Source of the DNA: Actinomyces sp. oral taxon 897
GTDB taxonomy: Bacteria > Actinomycetota > Actinomycetes > Actinomycetales > Actinomycetaceae
NCBI RefSeq assembly: GCF_002999235.1
Contig: NZ_CP027236.1
Location: 2,170,001-2,234,000 of the forward strand
Length of the DNA: 64,000 nt
Reading direction: 5' to 3'
Shown here in pieces: positions 11,127 to 22,138 of the stretch. Numbering within the stretch: position 1 is the first letter of the stretch; each line of letters begins with the position of its first letter. The notes under the pieces are model-generated. The model saw only the letters and a list, made by a program, of their open reading frames with translations. It searched no databases and was not told where the DNA came from. The position numbers and the translations under genes were made by a program.

Positions 11127-12332
11127 ATGGTGGATGTGAGCATGTTCAGGAACCCGGCTATGGGGGAGCTGGTCGAGATCACCGGGTCGGACCCGTACCT
11201 GGGCGACTGGCGCCACCACGCCTTCGTACCGGTCCCCCTGGGACCTGACGAGCCGGTGCTGGCGGGCTCTACCTACCGGGCCGTCGCGGCAGCCGGGCGG
11301 GCGCTGGCGGCCCTGGACGCCACGGCGCGGCGCCTGCCCAACCCCTACCTGCTGCGGACGCCCTCACTGCGTCGGGAGGCCCAGTCCACCTCCGCGCTGG
11401 AGGGGACCTACGCCCCGCTGGAGGAGGTGCTCACGGCCGACGCCGACGCCCCCACCTCCGCCCAGATGACTGAGATCCTCAACTACGTCAGCATGGCCCA
11501 GCTGGGCTTCGACTGGATAGGCGAGGGGCGCCCTCTGACCCTGGGACTCATTGAGGACCTCCAGGTCCGCCTCATGCGCGCCACGCCGCTGGAGGGGGAG
11601 TCCGGACGGCTGCGCCAGGGGCAGGTGGTCGTCGGCCGCCGCGACGTCGCCGGGCCCGAGGTCACACCGGTCGAGGCCAGCAGGTTCGTCCCGGTACCAC
11701 CGGGGGACCAGCTGCGTGCCGGGGTGACGGCCCTCCTGGACTGGCTGGGGACGGACCACCACGGACGTATAGACCCCGTCGTCGTGGCCGGGATGGTGCA
11801 CTACCAGTTCGAGACGCTCCACCCCTTCCGGGACGGCAACGGACGGCTCGGACGCTACCTCATTGTGCTCACGCTCATGCGCACCGGGCTGCTCTCCGAG
11901 CCCACCCTGACGGTCTCCCCCTGGTTCGAGGCCCGCCGCACCGAGTACTACGACGCGCTCCTGGGGGTGAGCACCGACGGTGACTGGGACTCCTTCCTGT
12001 CCTTCTTCGCACACGGCCTGGCCGACGCCGCCACCGCCACCAGGGAGCAGATGCTGGCACTGGTGGAGGTGCAGGGGGCCCTGCGGGACCGGGTCCGGGC
12101 CTCCTCGCTGCGCTCGGCACGCGCGCCAGACCTGGTGGACCTCGCCGTGGCCAACCCGTCCTTCACCGTGCGCCAGGTCCAGAGGGAGCTGGGCCTGTCC
12201 TACGGGCGCGCCAACAGCCTGGTGGGTCAGCTGGTCGACCTCGGCGTCCTGGAGACCGTCAACCCCGGCTCCCAGCCGCGCCGCTACTCGGCCCCGGAGG
12301 TGCTCCGGATCCTCCTGCGCGGTGGACGCTGA
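11127..12332 (+). CDS. Fic-domain protein (class II AMP-transferase) with C-terminal winged helix
   Basis: Predicted enzyme that attaches AMP or a similar group to protein hydroxyls, 401 residues. The Fic core has the active-site motif HPFRDGNGRLGR near residue 232. Upstream of it TSALEG near residue 90 fits the inhibitory-helix pattern (S/T)xxxE(G/N), which makes this a class II, self-inhibited Fic. A Fic_N segment precedes it (NPYLLRTPSLRREAQ). From about residue 340 there is a winged-helix region (FTVRQVQRELGLSYGRANSLVGQLVDLGVL), which could bind the palindrome upstream. The start is uncertain: ATG 11127, GTG 11130, GTG 11136 or ATG 11142. There is no ribosome-binding site and a TAGTAT hexamer ends only three bases before 11127, so a leaderless message is possible. 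No separate antitoxin gene is adjacent. Confidence 0.88.
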   Translation: MVDVSMFRNPAMGELVEITGSDPYLGDWRHHAFVPVPLGPDEPVLAGSTYRAVAAAGRALAALDATARRLPNPYLLRTPSLRREAQSTSALEGTYAPLEEVLTADADAPTSAQMTEILNYVSMAQLGFDWIGEGRPLTLGLIEDLQVRLMRATPLEGESGRLRQGQVVVGRRDVAGPEVTPVEASRFVPVPPGDQLRAGVTALLDWLGTDHHGRIDPVVVAGMVHYQFETLHPFRDGNGRLGRYLIVLTLMRTGLLSEPTLTVSPWFEARRTEYYDALLGVSTDGDWDSFLSFFAHGLADAATATREQMLALVEVQGALRDRVRASSLRSARAPDLVDLAVANPSFTVRQVQRELGLSYGRANSLVGQLVDLGVLETVNPGSQPRRYSAPEVLRILLRGGR

Positions 12333-14269: not shown

Positions 14270-14860
14270 CTACCGATACACGCCTCTCTCGTACCTCACC
14301 ATTGTGACGAACCCATGCAAGCCCTCGACTTCAAGCCTCTCAAGAAGATCGTCCACACTCCACCTGGGACCCTTCCGCCCCGTTCTTGCCACAATAGTGT
14401 CAAGGGCGTCGAGGACAAGACGCGGATACAGCCCGACAAGATCGATCAGGAAGTCGTCCGGAGATTGCGAGAAAAGAGCACCCGGAAGACGTTCATCCTC
14501 GAAATCCTTGAGATTGAAAGTAACAATCACGTCCGTCCGCCCGACGAGGGCCGCTGCGACAACGTGACCATCATTTGCGTCACGCATTCGCGGGACAAAC
14601 TGCAGAGCGCCCTCCCACCCTCGTACCCGCGCGTCAGGAAGTGCCTCGTTCATCTGACGTCGGAGCCGGGTGACATAACCGCGCAACTCCTCCTGATCGC
14701 GACCACGCTCGTCACGCAGACGGAGGACCGCCCGCTCCATCTCCTCCTCAATCATCTCGCTCCACAACGGCCTGAAAGCCTGTGTGGTACCGATCTCGAG
14801 CAATACATCACGCAAGGTACTGGGTACCAGCACGCAGGCGTCAAGCATTACAGAGAACAT
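14270..14860 (-). CDS. PIN-domain toxin (VapC-like ribonuclease)
   Basis: Predicted ribonuclease toxin of 196 residues. The PIN fold is visible from the first acidic residue D7 in MLDACVLVP, through WSEMIEEEM, to DANDGHVVAAA near residue 93 and IVTFNLKDF near residue 112, giving the usual cluster of acidic metal ligands. It is longer than classic VapC (about 130 residues), with a C-terminal extension of some 80 residues, matching the PIN_3 type of toxin. It starts 5 bases after the antitoxin stop, with GAGGG upstream, so the two are one transcript. Toxicity and RNA target cannot be read from the sequence. Confidence 0.82.
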   Translation of the reverse strand: MFSVMLDACVLVPSTLRDVLLEIGTTQAFRPLWSEMIEEEMERAVLRLRDERGRDQEELRGYVTRLRRQMNEALPDARVRGWEGALQFVPRMRDANDGHVVAAALVGRTDVIVTFNLKDFEDERLPGALFSQSPDDFLIDLVGLYPRLVLDALDTIVARTGRKGPRWSVDDLLERLEVEGLHGFVTMVRYERGVYR

Positions 14861-14865
14861 TGTCG

Positions 14866-15354
14866 TCAGCCCTCTGAGCGCACAGCCGCAAGCACCTCAC
14901 GCAGTCGTGCAGGATCGTCGTCATACCCTCCCATAGCCTGCGTATCCGCCACCATGTCACCCAGCGCCTCGTCCGCTGCACGCCGCTGGCGCCGCTGAAA
15001 CTCAAGCACGTCAGACAGACAGAGCCGACGGTGCCGACGGACTCTCTCGAAGGGAATCTCCCCCGCCTCCAGCATCCTGACCAGGGTAGAGCGGGAGATG
15101 CCGAGCATGTCGGCCGCCTCCTGCGTCGTCAGCCGGGTGCCGTGCGGGGCGATCGTCACCGCGAGCCCCTGACGCATCGCCCGAGCGACCTGGACCAGAA
15201 GGTCTGCCATGGACTGGCTCAGCTCGATCGTCTCACCACCAGCCACCAGGTGCGCGGACGCCCCGTGCGAGGACAGCATCTCCACGATCTCACCGAACCG
15301 CCCAGCAACCTCCTCCTCGGGCAGATAGGTCCTGCTCTCCGCCGCTGTAGTCAT
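14866..15354 (-). CDS. helix-turn-helix antitoxin paired with the PIN toxin
   Basis: Predicted DNA-binding antitoxin of 162 residues. An excisionase/MerR-like helix-turn-helix covers about residues 73-122, with LTTQEAADMLGISRSTLVRML and GEIPFERVRRHRRLCLSDVL. The acidic C terminus (EALGDMVADTQAMGGYDDDPA) is the likely toxin-neutralising part. The ATG at 15354 was chosen because AGGAGG sits five bases before it; the frame extends to 15381 without a better start. It is the first gene of the pair. The transcript begins close to the degenerate end of the CRISPR array, and this pair probably arrived independently of it. Confidence 0.8.
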   Translation of the reverse strand: MTTAAESRTYLPEEEVAGRFGEIVEMLSSHGASAHLVAGGETIELSQSMADLLVQVARAMRQGLAVTIAPHGTRLTTQEAADMLGISRSTLVRMLEAGEIPFERVRRHRRLCLSDVLEFQRRQRRAADEALGDMVADTQAMGGYDDDPARLREVLAAVRSEG

Positions 15355-15446
15355 CAGACCTCCTGCCAACCGGTGGCGCACACGCTCTGCGCACTATGCT
15401 CATCTTGCGCGAATTGAGCGTATCTCCGCCTTCCTCATCCTGACAA

Positions 15447-16240
15447 GCTGGGCAGTCCCCCTGGTAGACTCCTCGACAGGCTCCGCACCGCCATCGACCT
15501 GCTGGGAATCAGTCCTCAGTCCCCCTGGTAGACTCCCGAGGGCGTCGGACTCCACTGGGGCGGGGCTGGGAATCAGTCCTCAGTCCCCCTGGTAGACTCC
15601 TCACGGTGACCGACCATGACGGGTACACGCTGGGAATCAGTCCTCAGTCCCCCTGGTAGACTCCTCATACTGCTGCCCGCACGCCCGTTCGGGCTGGGAA
15701 TCAGTCCTCAGTCCCCCTGGTAGACTCCGCCGGTGGCCTCGGGGAGACCGACGCCTGCTGGGAATCAGTCCTCAGTCCCCCTGGTAGACTCCTCCTGCCC
15801 GAGGCCGAACGCCACCTGGTGCTGGGAATCAGTCCTCAGTCCCCCTGGTAGACTCCGGCGGTGGCGGGGCCTCTGGCTCAGGCCGCTGGGAATCAGTCCT
15901 CAATCCCCCTGGTAGACTCCCTATCGCGATCCTGTCGATGGAGACGGTGCTGGGAATCAGTCCTCAGTCCCCCTGGTAGACTCCGACGCCATCACCGCCC
16001 TCGTCCGCTCCAGCTGGGAATCAGTCCTCAGTCCCCCTGGTAGACTCCTGCACGCCGGCCTTGAGGAGCCAGCACAGCTGGGAATCAGTCCTCAGTCCCC
16101 CTGGTAGACTCCCCAGGTCGAGGCTTCCGTTGATGATCCGGCTGGGAATCAGTCCTCAGTCCCCCTGGTAGACTCCAGGTACGCCACCAGGTTACGGCCG
16201 AACAGCTGGGAATCAGTCCTCAGTCCCCCTGGTAGACTCC
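15447..16240 (+). CRISPR. type II-C CRISPR array, 12 full repeats plus one truncated repeat, 12 spacers
   Basis: Twelve 36-base repeats begin at 15501, 15565, 15629, 15693, 15757, 15821, 15885, 15949, 16013, 16077, 16141 and 16205, a strict 64-base period with 28-base spacers. Each starts GCTGGGAATCAG and ends CTGGTAGACTCC. The repeat at 15885 has one change (CAATCC for CAGTCC). A further copy at 15447-15472 lacks ten internal bases and is the decayed terminal repeat. The tracrRNA anti-repeat on the minus strand shows that the plus strand is the crRNA strand. The end of each repeat holds TGGTAGACT, an extended -10 form, so each unit may carry its own promoter as known for Neisseria type II-C arrays. 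No spacer matches other DNA in this window by eye. Confidence 0.97.
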
Positions 16241-16290: not shown

Positions 16291-16611
16291 CTAGAAAATC
16301 GTGAGCTGCTGGGGTGCGGGATCCGGGGCAAGAGGAGCCTCCTCGCGAAAACAGAGCATGGTCGACCACTCGCGATCTGTGACATAGAGCACTCTAACCT
16401 CGCCGCCGTCTGGCAGCGCAGCCTTGATGGCCCGGATTCTGCGAACCTCGCCGGACATGGTCGGAGAGTACCTCACGTACACACTGTACTGCGCCATCCA
16501 AAATCCCTCGTCAAGAAGAAGGTGCCGAAACTGGTTGGCCTCACGACGTTGCTTCGCAGTCAGGACCGGAAGATCGAACATGACAATGGACCACATCGGG
16601 TCATCTGCCAT
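16291..16611 (-). CDS. cas2: CRISPR-associated endonuclease Cas2
   Basis: Adaptation protein of 106 residues, normal for Cas2. It has the ferredoxin-like start WSIVMFDLPVLTAKQRREAN with the conserved aspartate after the first strand, FRHLLLDEGFWMAQYSVYVRY, and the C-terminal strand VRVLYVTDREW. The ATG at 16611 overlaps the last 11 bases of cas1 and has AGAAGG seven bases before it; the frame is open upstream to 16647 inside cas1. With Cas1 it would form the spacer integrase, but cas1 here is split by an insertion element, so Cas2 probably has no working partner unless one is encoded elsewhere. It ends 50 bases before the last CRISPR repeat. Confidence 0.95.
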   Translation of the reverse strand: MADDPMWSIVMFDLPVLTAKQRREANQFRHLLLDEGFWMAQYSVYVRYSPTMSGEVRRIRAIKAALPDGGEVRVLYVTDREWSTMLCFREEAPLAPDPAPQQLTIF

Positions 16612-17485
16612 TAGAAACCTTCTGAGGTCCAGCCCACGAAGGAACATCTAAACGGTCACGATCACCTTCACAGTACTGCCCCAGATGCTGAGCCAGACGT
16701 TCGAGGACGGTGGGAAGCGTGGAGCCCGTGGAATCGAACGCCTGCTGCACGGTCGCCACAAGCTTCTGCTTGACGCTTCGATTCTCAAGAGAGTCATCCG
16801 GAGCAAGAGATAGAACGGTATCGTCTACGACAGGACGAAAAGGCTCAATAAGATCGTCAACGAGATTGAAGGCATTGCTACGACCACGATGGAACAGGCC
16901 GATAGCGGGGCTGAGCCCGGCGCTCACCACCGCACGTATACCGTGTGCCCTCAGGACACCGTACCCGTAGTTGAGGCAGCTATTCCTATTATCCTCGGCA
17001 TCAGGCTCCCGAAAGAACCGACCCTCGTCAGGGAACATCCTCGACCAGTACAGACGGGCCGCATGGGCCTCAATGTTCTCCGGGTCGCCAGAACGGACCT
17101 TTCGGGCCATCTCCCGCAACCGCTCGGAGGCACTCGCGTCCACGCCGCTCAGTACCGCCGCCTGCCCCAGGACCTTGGCCTTGACGATCCTACCCCACGC
17201 ATTCTTCCTCCGCGGCAGGGACAACTGGGACTGGGCCAGTTGTCGCGCACCAATCCGAGTGTGCTCGTGCCACGGGTACGCTGCTCCTTCAGGTACCCCG
17301 CGCCAGTCGCAGAACATCACCACCACGTCCGCCCCAAGAAGTCGGTGCAACACCGCGGAGGAGAAGGCCGTGTGAGGGCCGACAAGGAACACCGCCACAT
17401 CGGCTACCGGTACCCGTACCTGCTCCCCAGCACTGGGGTGCACCAGGACGGCCCCTCGTTCCGAGGTGAGCTGACCGTCCAGTGA
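16601..17485 (-). pseudogene. cas1: cas1, 3' part (interrupted by an IS630-family element)
   Basis: This holds about 293 of an estimated 305 codons of the CRISPR integrase Cas1. After the insertion, the frame resumes with LDGQLTSERGAVLVHPSAG and runs to the normal end. The catalytic region is intact (IEAHAARLYW, then GLFHRGRSNAFNLVDDLIEPF). The open frame visible today starts only at a GTG at 17443, 13 codons further in, and has no ribosome-binding site. The missing first 12 codons, ATG included, lie on the far side of the element at 18652-18686, and joining the pieces restores the frame exactly. Loss of the start and first beta strand probably inactivates the gene. Confidence 0.9.
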
Positions 17486-18651
17486 TGGCCGGAATTAAAC
17501 AAAATGGTATTCTGGGGTGGCTTCTGCGGGGTTCCTGGTTGACGTCTTCGGAGTATCTCGTGTAGGATTGTCTCGTGCAGATCGACATGACGAACGAGGA
17601 GCGGGACATCCTCATCAGGTGGAAGAAGCGCTCGGACACCCACAAGCTGGTTCGGATGAAGGCGGAGGCGATTGTGTACGCCGCCCGTGGCGTCGGCCTG
17701 GACATTATCGCGGAGATGGTCGAGCGGACCGAGAAGACGGTACGCGAGTGGCTCTCGGAATGGCGGAGATACAGGCTGGGATCCGTGGTGACCGGGCATG
17801 CTGGCAACGAGAACGCGGCGAAGCTCAGGAGGGCACAGAAGGAGGAGCTGGAGGAGATTCTCAGTAAGCCACCATCGGAGTCGGGAGTCAAGGCCGCCTT
17901 CTGGGACGTCCCGGCCCTCAGGGACGTCGTGCAGATAAGATTCGGAGTCGAGTACAGGTCGGACTCCTCCTACCGGCTGCTCATGCGCTTCCTGGGAATG
18001 AGCTTCAAGCTCCCAGACCCCTTCGACAAGCGCCGCGACGAGGAGGCCATCACCAGGCGGATGACCGAGATCCGGCACCAGGTCAACGACCTGCTCCAGG
18101 AGGGCTGGGAGGTCTACACCGTCGACGAGGTCCGCGTCGAGCACGAGGCCGAGACAAGACGCATGTGGCTCCCCAGAGGAAGGAGGACAAAACTGTACGT
18201 GGACCGCGAGAAGGCGAGCCAGTCGTTCTTCGGAGCACTGAGCCTGACGACCAGGAAGATGAGGATCTACCCCATCGAGGGAAACCAGAACACCGAGCAG
18301 ACCATCCTCATGATGGAACGCCTCCAACGAGAGACCGATGAGGGAAAGAAGATCGCCGTCGTCCTGGACAACGCCAGGTTCCACCACGCCAGGGCCCTGA
18401 CCGACCTCTACGCCCCCGGCCAGGCCCTGGAACGCATAACACCCATCTACCTGCCACCCTACGCCCCCGACCACAACCCCACGGAACACGTGTGGAACGC
18501 CGCCAAGAACAACATCGCCAACCTCCAACGCGACACCCCGGAGAAAACCTTCACGGCCTTCACCACCTACATCACCAACCGCACCTTCGACTACGACCTC
18601 GAGCACCTCCCAACCACACCACCACACACCGATCTTGTTTAATTCCAGCCA
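17486..18651. mobile_element. IS630-family insertion sequence inside cas1
   Basis: A 1166-base element bounded by 20-base inverted repeats (TGGCCGGAATTAAACAAAAT at the left; TGGCTGGAATTAAACAAGAT at the right, read inward), differing at two positions. The dinucleotide GA flanks both sides (17484-17485 and 18652-18653) and is present once in the reconstructed cas1, as expected for a 2-base target duplication. IS630 elements usually choose TA, so GA is atypical. The single transposase frame runs on the plus strand, opposite to cas1. The right inverted repeat contains the transposase stop codon. Confidence 0.9.
17575..18642 (+). CDS. IS630-family DDE transposase
   Basis: Transposase of 355 residues moving the surrounding element. 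The N-terminal half has a helix-turn-helix (about residues 35-65, IIAEMVERTEKTVREWLSEW). The C-terminal DDE_3 catalytic core shows the first Asp in VYTVDEVRVEHE near residue 182, the second in IAVVLDNARFHHA near residue 264, and the Glu in YAPDHNPTEHVWN near residue 306. The GTG at 17575 has AGGA seven bases upstream; an in-frame ATG follows at 17587. The frame is complete with no frameshift, so the element may still be active. Transcription opposes cas1 and cas9. Confidence 0.92.
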   Translation: MQIDMTNEERDILIRWKKRSDTHKLVRMKAEAIVYAARGVGLDIIAEMVERTEKTVREWLSEWRRYRLGSVVTGHAGNENAAKLRRAQKEELEEILSKPPSESGVKAAFWDVPALRDVVQIRFGVEYRSDSSYRLLMRFLGMSFKLPDPFDKRRDEEAITRRMTEIRHQVNDLLQEGWEVYTVDEVRVEHEAETRRMWLPRGRRTKLYVDREKASQSFFGALSLTTRKMRIYPIEGNQNTEQTILMMERLQRETDEGKKIAVVLDNARFHHARALTDLYAPGQALERITPIYLPPYAPDHNPTEHVWNAAKNNIANLQRDTPEKTFTAFTTYITNRTFDYDLEHLPTTPPHTDLV

Positions 18652-18686
18652 GAGGAGCAGTCAATAATACGCCAAGCTGTATCCAT
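18652..18686 (-). pseudogene. cas1: cas1, 5' fragment (first 12 codons)
   Basis: The minus strand from ATG at 18686 reads MDTAWRIIDCSS and then stops abruptly at the inverted repeat of the insertion element. This is the expected start of a type II Cas1 and joins in frame to the 3' part at 17483. An AGGTAGGT ribosome-binding sequence precedes it, and it begins 9 bases after the cas9 stop, the normal cas9-cas1-cas2 operon order. Confidence 0.88.
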
Positions 18687-18695
18687 CAGAACGAC

Positions 18696-21600
18696 CTACC
18701 TAACCGTCCAGGTGGTCGGCAGACCGGCTGCACTGGAGTGGCGGACACGTCCCAACGCATCACGCCTGACTACCGTAGGGTGGGTGGAGAAGAGAACGTT
18801 GACGGACATCCGCCACCCTCTTCCCACTATTTTCGCAACGTCACCAACGGACTCGGTAAGACCTTCTGCCGCGAGCACGTTAGGACGCAACTTGACGACA
18901 GTAGCGCTCTCAAACCCCCTGATCCTCCATCGTGTAATATTAGGGAACTCCTTGCGGAACCCACCGATGTATCCGCCTGTAAAACTCTCCATGGGAACCT
19001 CGAGCTCGTCGCCCACGACCACCCAGCCGAGGTAGGTAGCAGCCTCCTCAGCCAAGGCCGCCCTCAGCTTGGGCCAAGCACACCTGACGCTGATAGTCTG
19101 GAGAGCCAGGGGCACTGAGAACAAGTCGTCACGACGGTACGGAAGAAGGTCGTGGCTAAAGACCCGCAGCATGGCATAGACGGGCTTTCTCCCCTCGATC
19201 CGGTAGAGACGTGCATGGTGGATCGTCAAACCAATCGTAGCGAATCCTCCTCGGACTGCGATCGCCGCAAACGGCTTCTCAGCCGCGTCGTCACCCGGTT
19301 TCTGTGAGAAGACCGTGATATTGTCGTCGGCGGTCACCCGCCTCCCGTGGACCTTGATAACACGGTTCTCCGATGGGGGCAGACCTCCCCGGGGAGTAAA
19401 ATCGGGCTGCCGCGTCAGTGCGCACCACAGAGCTGGCGAGGATGCCCGATCAACCTGCACGGCAGTCAGCCCGTCTCCCAGACGGTGTCGAGCCAGAGGA
19501 CGTACAATTTCATGGTGGGCGTTCCCGCTACCGAGTCGGAGCCGTAGGTTCTCTGTGACACAGACACGATCTTCTGCCAGTGCCGCATTGAGCAACTCGG
19601 TAAGCCGGAGCATATGGTCACGCCAGGAGTCAAACCTGTCCCGCGCACCAGGGGTTGCGCCGGTGAAGGACTTCCAGGTCTCCTCCTGACCGGACAGCCG
19701 CTGCGCCCAGCGTTGGCTGGACCGCTCAGCCAAGGTCTTGGCAACACTGGGGTTCATTAGCGCAATGACGGCCGCATCCACGGCATGATGCCTGCGATCA
19801 AGCCGGTCCTTCTTCCCGCGCTCCCCCAGCAGGTTGACGCGCGAGTCAATTCCTGCCGCACGCCTGGCCCCGGCCGTCAACGACCCGCGGTACACGGCGA
19901 CCTCTGCCGACGGATACGCTGACTGCACCCGGTGATGGAGCTCATTAGCCATCCAGGCCACTGACTCCATACTTCGTGCGTCAATTTCTGGATCCTCATC
20001 GGTGCGACGCAATCGTGCGATCACGTTCTTCTGAAGTCTTCGCAGCTGTGCAGACTGCGCGCGACCGTCCTGGATATTCCTCCAACGCCTCACCCGGGCC
20101 ACGGCCTCCTCTACGCTGACACCCGAGATACCGCAGTCCTGGGCCCACGTGGCGAACGGGGTGTTCGACTTGCTGCGGTTACACCGCTCGCACACTGCGA
20201 CGAGGTTCTCGCGACGGTTGTTGGAACCGGGCCCTGCCTGCGGGACAATGTGGTCGAGCTGGCACGTCAGATACCCGATAGTACCGCCGCAGTAGACGCA
20301 CACACTGTCCTGAACCATTACGGCAGTGTATCGCACGACGTCGCTGTGGCGGACCTCGCCCTGGATACCGTACGCCTTCTTGATATCGTCCACAGCCGTT
20401 TGGTTCTGCCGGAACCGGCGATTATTGTCGTGGTCAAGCTCCCTGGCGGTCCGCTCGCTTGAGAAGCCTGCGCGTACATGCTCGATCTGGATAGCCTCAG
20501 GAGTTCCCCAGACGTCCGCGACACCGTTGAGGAAACGTGCCACCGCCTTGACCGTGCGGTCCACGGAGGGATTGCCCACTGGGGCGCCCACAGGTTCCGC
20601 GGGCGGCTTCCAGGAGTCGTCCACGTGAAAGACGTGCTTACGGGCCGCATGCAGGTCGTCGTCGGTGGCCAGCATCTGCTCGCTGAGGAGTGCCAGGGAC
20701 TCACGCGAGTAGGCGGCGCGCCCAGCTGGCAGGTGGATGGAGTCCAGCTTTCCCTGCTCCTCCTCTGACAGGCTCCCCAGGAACTCCGCGCACTCCGAGT
20801 CGTCAGCACCCTCGTAGAGGTAGCGGACCATGGCACCACGGCGCTCCGCGTCCGCATCCGCCCACCACAGTCTGAGCGGCTTAATACGGCAGCTGCCCAT
20901 GACCTGATTGGTGACGTCCACCGGGGGCTGCGCACTGGCTCGCTCACCATCGGCTGTCATTGAAGCCGTCCCGCGCAGGTTCTGGCGTCGGACACCGAGT
21001 CGCTCAGCAACGTCCCCCCACGCCAGATCCTCCGACATGGACTCAAGCAGGAAAGTCACAACCTTCTTACGCTCGCGAGGCAGCAGAGGGCGCTGCGCCC
21101 CGTCTCGTCCCGCGATCCTGAGATTCGCCACGATCGAGATGACCCTGAAGCGCTGGAACTCAGGATCACACTTCGGTGCCCGCAGGAAATCGCCTTGCCC
21201 AGGCAGAGGGTCGCTGGCAACCCTGCTCCTGCTCGATCCTCGCGGGGACTCGGAGGCGAAGACAGCCAGAATGAGCTCCCTGCACTCCTGCTCGGACACT
21301 CCCTGCGTCTTGCAGATCCTCCTGATCTCGTTTGCATTATCTGTCTGGTGCAACTTCCCCAGGACGCCATCAGGGCCCCTCATAGCGACCCTATTATTCA
21401 GGGCCACGACGGCCATCGCCTGCCCCGGCGTGAACCCCTCGTCCAGAACCTCACCGGTAGTATTCATTACCCGCTTACGCATCGCCCTCATAAAGTCTGA
21501 CTCGGGAGCGGGAGCCAGCAGCGACTCCGTTCTGGCGTAGGGGTTACGCCAGCCCCGGTGCCGCGCAATATGCCGCAGAGCCATTGAGATCGCATACCTG

Positions 21601-21999: not shown

Positions 22000-22103
22000 C
22001 AAAATTATAACTGCCTGGCCCCTCAGGACCAGGCAGTCAGACCGGCGAACCGGTGGAGCATTCAGCACTCACAAACACGGTGAGGCTTACTGGGAATCAG
22101 TCG
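22000..22103 (-). ncRNA. tracrRNA of the type II-C system
   Basis: On the minus strand a 13-base anti-repeat (GACTGATTCCCAG, 22102-22090) is perfectly complementary to CTGGGAATCAGTC of the CRISPR repeat. It is followed by a CTCAC/GTGAG hairpin, the nexus-like segment GCTCCACCGGTTCGCCGG, and a terminator stem ACTGCCTGG / CCAGGCAGT (22037-22010) leading into TAATTTT. The order and spacing match the tracrRNA of Corynebacterium diphtheriae as I recall it. It is transcribed toward cas9, ending about 40 bases before it. The 5' end is inferred from the promoter position and may vary by a few bases. Confidence 0.92.
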
Positions 22104-22109
22104 AGAGTC

Positions 22110-22138
22110 AGTATAACCCGTACGGCACGACGGTGCAA
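22110..22138 (-). promoter_or_regulatory. tracrRNA promoter
   Basis: On the minus strand TTGCAC (22138-22133) and TATACT (22115-22110) are separated by exactly 17 bases, a good housekeeping-sigma promoter. The predicted start is 6 to 8 bases downstream, at the first bases of the anti-repeat. Confidence 0.85.

Follow-up and report, generated by a model that had tools for sequence, protein, structure and literature searches.

The locus analysed here raises the question of what a Cas9-based CRISPR system can still do once its cas1 gene has been split by an insertion sequence, and of whether its host can still gain new immunity. It lies in a window of 64,000 nucleotides (bases 2170001–2234000 of the 3.24-Mb contig of a genome totalling 3,249,416 bases in 2 contigs). 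Read from position 22125 down to 15437, the order is tracrRNA candidate, cas9, split cas1 and cas2, all on the minus strand, then the CRISPR array. Among named relatives, those nearest to its Cas1 come from Actinomyces oris, A. naeslundii and A. johnsonii, a ranking from which records very close to the window's own genome have possibly been left out. The features of the locus are as follows.

15437..16240, plus strand: CRISPR array with 12 full 36-nt repeats and 12 spacers of 28 nt, the degenerate repeat coming first (about 15437–15472)
16291..16611, minus strand: cas2 (PF09827, E 4.6e-12, the match beginning at residue 18 in the open frame; TIGR01573, E 1.2e-14)
16601..17485, minus strand: 3' part of the split type II cas1 (TIGR03639, E 1e-67, 228.4 bits; 97% identical to the intact allele P0001)
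17441..17443, minus strand: GTG, first usual start codon in the 3' part of cas1, V26 of the whole protein (from the ORF list, the sequence and the intact allele)
17484..17485: GA, left copy of the target duplication (flank sequence)
17486..18651, plus strand: IS630-family insertion sequence of 1166 bp (inverted repeats 17486–17505 and 18632–18651)
17575..18642, plus strand: IS630 transposase of 355 aa, frame intact (NF033545 transpos_IS630, E 1.5e-55; PF13358 DDE_3, E 3e-27)
18652..18653: GA, right copy of the target duplication (flank sequence)
18652..18686, minus strand: 5' part of cas1, 35 bases from the ATG at 18686, opening like P0001
18696..21965, minus strand: cas9, about 1087–1089 aa (1558.7 bits to 4ogc; Pfam Cas9 domains)
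22001..22125, minus strand: tracrRNA candidate (exact 13-nt anti-repeat at 22090–22102; terminator-like hairpin and T-rich tail at 22001–22037; RNA ends guessed)

Disruption of cas1 by an IS630-family element

The cas1 frame opens at ATG 18686, nine bases past the cas9 stop codon, as a preliminary description of this DNA had stated. On the minus strand, it reads MDTAWRIIDCSS, with the third base of the twelfth codon supplied by the element, then GWN and a stop codon; it picks up again on the other side at 17485 and ends at 16601. The cas2 frame is open from 16647, with ATG 16611 as its likely start, which gives an 11-nt overlap with the end of cas1. The stop inside the element and the matches to TIGR03639 and NF033545 bear out the earlier claim that cas1 is split at 17486–18651. 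Since the frame reaches this stop three codons into the element, no full-length Cas1 would be produced from the split type II gene. A read-through fusion between the 5' piece of cas1 and the element was considered and rejected, as the stop follows after three further codons.

The preliminary description had stated that removal of the element restores a Cas1 of about 305 residues. Just such a protein exists as an uninterrupted allele, P0001, which has 305 residues, belongs to a cluster of 50 member sequences and is 97% identical to the split gene over the 289 residues compared. The two are identical over residues 1–12, differ at one of the four residues between 12 and 17 (D for E at 14) and show eight differences in the 289 residues from position 17 on. 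A scan with a short pattern found the start of cas1 uninterrupted across the site in five of the six nearest named loci; the sixth (L049) did not match the short pattern, but P0011, a protein from a contig of equal length and description, is whole. Of the 48 other genomes of the genus, 7 encode a close type II Cas1 (E 1.4e-82 or better), the open frames being 293–324 aa long. An internal TGA reported in four of these matches was dismissed: in the printed frames, it is the gene's own terminal stop. The cas1 region had no match when searched against plasmids.

The element has 20-base terminal inverted repeats that are 90% complementary and an intact 355-residue transposase, in agreement with the preliminary description; a score of 188.8 bits against the IS630 transposase model NF033545 (cut-off 100), together with the DDE_3 domain PF13358, places it in the IS630 family. 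Its transposase lies on the plus strand, opposite to the direction of cas1. Six copies are found genome-wide, and the fact that the element recurs at five other places shows that the insertion is not a chance sequence. These five copies are 92–95% identical to the cas1 copy; four are full-length and one extends over 1161 of the 1166 bases. The full transposase frame is kept in two of the six copies only, the one in cas1 and the one at C1:2748585–2749753. The earlier claim that the insertion is recent stands in part: the remainder of cas1 is undecayed, as its eight differences in 289 residues indicate, but the cas1 copy has no near-identical sister among the other five, from each of which it diverges by 5–8%.

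IS630 elements usually use TA targets. Yet the two-base duplication reported in the preliminary description, which is indeed present, is GA, a departure from TA that had gone unremarked: read on the plus strand, the cas1 copy has GA at either end (TC on the cas1 strand), whereas TA/TA flanks are found at five of the six copies in the genome. A TA target duplication thus characterizes the element as such and is absent at the cas1 copy, so that GA is an exception of this insertion event and not of the element. At this site, the five relatives read have TC on the cas1 strand and therefore GA on the opposite one, which suggests that the target was probably already GA before the insertion. In other genomes, where the best eight candidates of each were scored, 11 full-length matches were listed. 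Ten of these were examined: six are flanked by TA/TA, three have TA at just one end, and one, a relative of the element at G030:C1:527645–528795, lies between two CA dinucleotides and is thus a second case of a duplication other than TA. Another relative of this IS630 element, likewise outside the window's own genome but within the genus, lies within a repeat of a type I-E-like array (G030:C1:1637000–1641500; 54 repeats in the stretch), at the TA close to the end of that repeat. Since the repeat itself contains this TA, such arrays could often be targeted.

The interference parts of the Cas9 locus

The closest solved relative of the window's Cas9 is the protein of entries 4ogc and 4oge (1558.7 bits to 4ogc), which we take to be the Cas9 of Actinomyces naeslundii. 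Four of five RuvC/HNH motif patterns matched; the place of the unmatched one, the second RuvC motif, reads IEHVR. VEHVR or IEHVR occupies this place in seven of eight relatives checked, and the pattern missed the eighth. The effector thus displays RuvC and HNH motifs. Judged from the ORF list, which leaves room for no further gene besides the element from cas9 to the array, the gene order is cas9–cas1–cas2 without csn2 or cas4; an array and a putative tracrRNA with a matching anti-repeat accompany it, and Cas1 is split by the element. The locus is therefore a type II-C system with a broken adaptation gene, not a complete one. With its 13-base anti-repeat and terminator-like hairpin, the stretch upstream of cas9 is a good candidate for the tracrRNA.

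The array comprises 12 repeats at 64-nt steps, 11 exact and one with one mismatch, or 13 units when counted by a shared 16-mer, degenerate end included. Related loci, some of them from the same genome, have an array in 13 of 15 cases, with counts from at least 9 to at least 62 repeats by exact 16-mer; the size of the present array is therefore uninformative. For 4 of the 12 spacers, the last 20 bases were searched as exact 20-mers against viral contigs, with no match, and the whole array gave only five weak matches against annotated phages (E 0.3 to 0.9). Against 49 genomes of the genus, the matches listed comprised related arrays and many short matches (E about 2e-4 or weaker), one of them a 27-base, 89% match in the host's own genome (E 0.03); the short matches were provisionally taken as chance or GC-rich similarity. 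Thus, with no virus matched by the four spacers tried, the past function of the array is not evidenced by targets.

Cas9, the tracrRNA candidate, the array and cas2 all look whole, as had been claimed, and because of this, interference is plausibly kept at the Cas9 locus. Near the far end of the array, PIN-domain and helix-turn-helix proteins adjoin in a toxin–antitoxin-like order (14270–15381), and a Fic-domain protein that matches the SoFic defence model (E 1.5e-80) is encoded at 11127–12332.

Probable loss of adaptation and its alternatives

The Cas1–Cas2 integrase is needed for spacer insertion, and for this reason, the Cas9 locus has very probably ceased to acquire spacers. The II-C array would then be frozen in the one strain and genome read here. 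The earlier claim that adaptation was probably lost holds for this locus but not genome-wide. The genome contains two cas1 genes besides the type II cas1 of the window, three in all. One belongs to a complete-looking type I-E operon (cas3, cse1, cse2, cas7, cas5, cas6, cas1e and cas2e, each above the cut-off of at least one fitting model), in which the frames of cas1e (312 residues) and cas2e are open. Its array has 216 repeats, with up to five mismatches allowed, and 215 spacers, 206 of which are distinct. Among its spacers, seven are found in two copies and one in three, a hint of duplications within the array. The other gene lies in a cas1–cas2 pair accompanied by five repeats (L001:1299–2342, L042:15621–15944); this third cas1 is itself broken, as its first 76 profile positions are absent and its frame shifts, and no cas model matched the 10 neighbouring frames considered, out of a longer list. 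Of the three cas1 genes, two are thus broken, and judged by gene content, only the I-E locus appears capable of learning; the I-E system could accordingly be the route by which the strain gains new immunity.

The proposed chain of events is thus the following: an IS630-family element transposed into codon 12 of a type II-C cas1, duplicating GA; full-length Cas1 would have been lost with the interruption of the frame; the Cas9 locus would have stopped taking up spacers while Cas9, the tracrRNA and the existing spacers would still be able to act; and new immunity would still be gained through the I-E system, with its own adaptation genes and large array. We put the probability of this whole explanation at about 0.88.

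The alternatives concern the reality of the insertion and the loss of acquisition. Six copies of the element provide the kind of repeat at which misjoins occur, and one of them could have been misassembled into an intact cas1; this is hardly credible, given that the cas1 copy differs by 5–8% from every other copy, sits in a 3.24-Mb contig and has the same dinucleotide on both flanks. Spacers could also be added to the II-C array in trans, by the I-E Cas1–Cas2 pair, whose frames are open, or by another integrase. We regard such complementation as very unlikely: to our knowledge, the type I-E and type II machineries are not expected to stand in for each other, nor is an I-E integrase expected to serve a type II-C array; the I-E system is of another subtype and has another repeat (28 nt versus 36 nt), and the third cas1 is broken. 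A second intact cas1 elsewhere in the genome had been named beforehand as an argument against loss of adaptation; to the letter, cas1e is such a gene, but in substance, it probably does not refute the loss, because of this difference in subtype and repeat.

Somewhat less improbable, though still unlikely, is internal initiation at GTG 17443, yielding a Cas1 that begins with V26 and could still join Cas2 in integrating spacers, in which case the locus would not be frozen. This codon is in frame, with a weak GAGG 10 nt upstream, and the undecayed state of the cas1 remainder also fits a gene still in use. Against this, the product would be deprived of residues 1–25, among which D9 and G22 are invariant in all 44 sequences of an alignment (chosen from 120 listed), W5 and G15 are found in 43 and R6 in 41. 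In the structure model of intact P0001 (mean pLDDT 89.0), strands are formed by residues 6–10, 15–20 and 23–28, and the short form would therefore lose two predicted strands and part of a third. Transcription would moreover need to cross 1166 bp of opposed element: a sigma-70 consensus scan of 17300–18760, which may miss promoters of a high-GC host, found no minus-strand promoter-like site, and a single plus-strand one ahead of the transposase. The element contains one minus-strand terminator-like site, versus 1.2 expected by chance. Altogether, on conservation and on the predicted structure, a short Cas1 that works seems far less likely than loss of function.

If adaptation at the Cas9 locus has stopped, as we favour, the insertion might even have been kept as useful, the Cas9 locus serving as a fixed, inherited memory unable to acquire self-targeting spacers while the large I-E system does all the learning. 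We consider this quite improbable; if true, the Cas9 and I-E systems would split memory and learning between them.

Comparison with known systems

The locus looks like a clean natural knock-out of adaptation at a Cas9 locus, with the effector retained and a complete-looking I-E system alongside, and near relatives carry intact alleles. Pairs of strains with and without intact alleles would make it possible to ask for what length of time an array that is frozen remains of use, and whether the end of learning is followed by decay of cas9.

In its gene content (cas9, cas1, cas2 and array) and its related Cas9, the locus resembles the Actinomyces type II-C system represented by 4ogc and 4oge, and six of six Actinomyces-type loci (L045–L050) have a repeat that is similar when judged by eye. 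It differs from these II-C relatives in that their cas1 is uninterrupted. As for the target site, non-TA integration is reported for the related Sleeping Beauty transposon (PMC5801840), a Tc1/mariner element, so that a transposase group whose normal target is TA occasionally goes into a different dinucleotide; here, the element is a bacterial IS630 and the target is GA. For the IS630/Tc1/mariner group, the GA target supplies a natural example from bacteria of integration outside TA.

A search of open-access text, narrow in scope, found no article joining insertion sequences or IS630 with cas1. Insertions into cas genes as such were surveyed by Sheng et al. 2023 (PMC10359306), whose text gives two counts that depend on the method, 28 events and 163, spanning 57 genera and 20 IS families; 'IS630' is absent from the main text of this survey, and no cas1 case is named in passages of it, the lists being placed in figures and supplements. 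As described in these passages, the surveyed cases resemble ours in that an insertion sequence with a target duplication breaks a cas gene of an otherwise complete locus; in contrast to them, the effector is whole here and the adaptation gene is struck. Such insertions are thus already catalogued, and the present case is a well-supported, sound further example in an instructive genomic context, with an unusual target dinucleotide.
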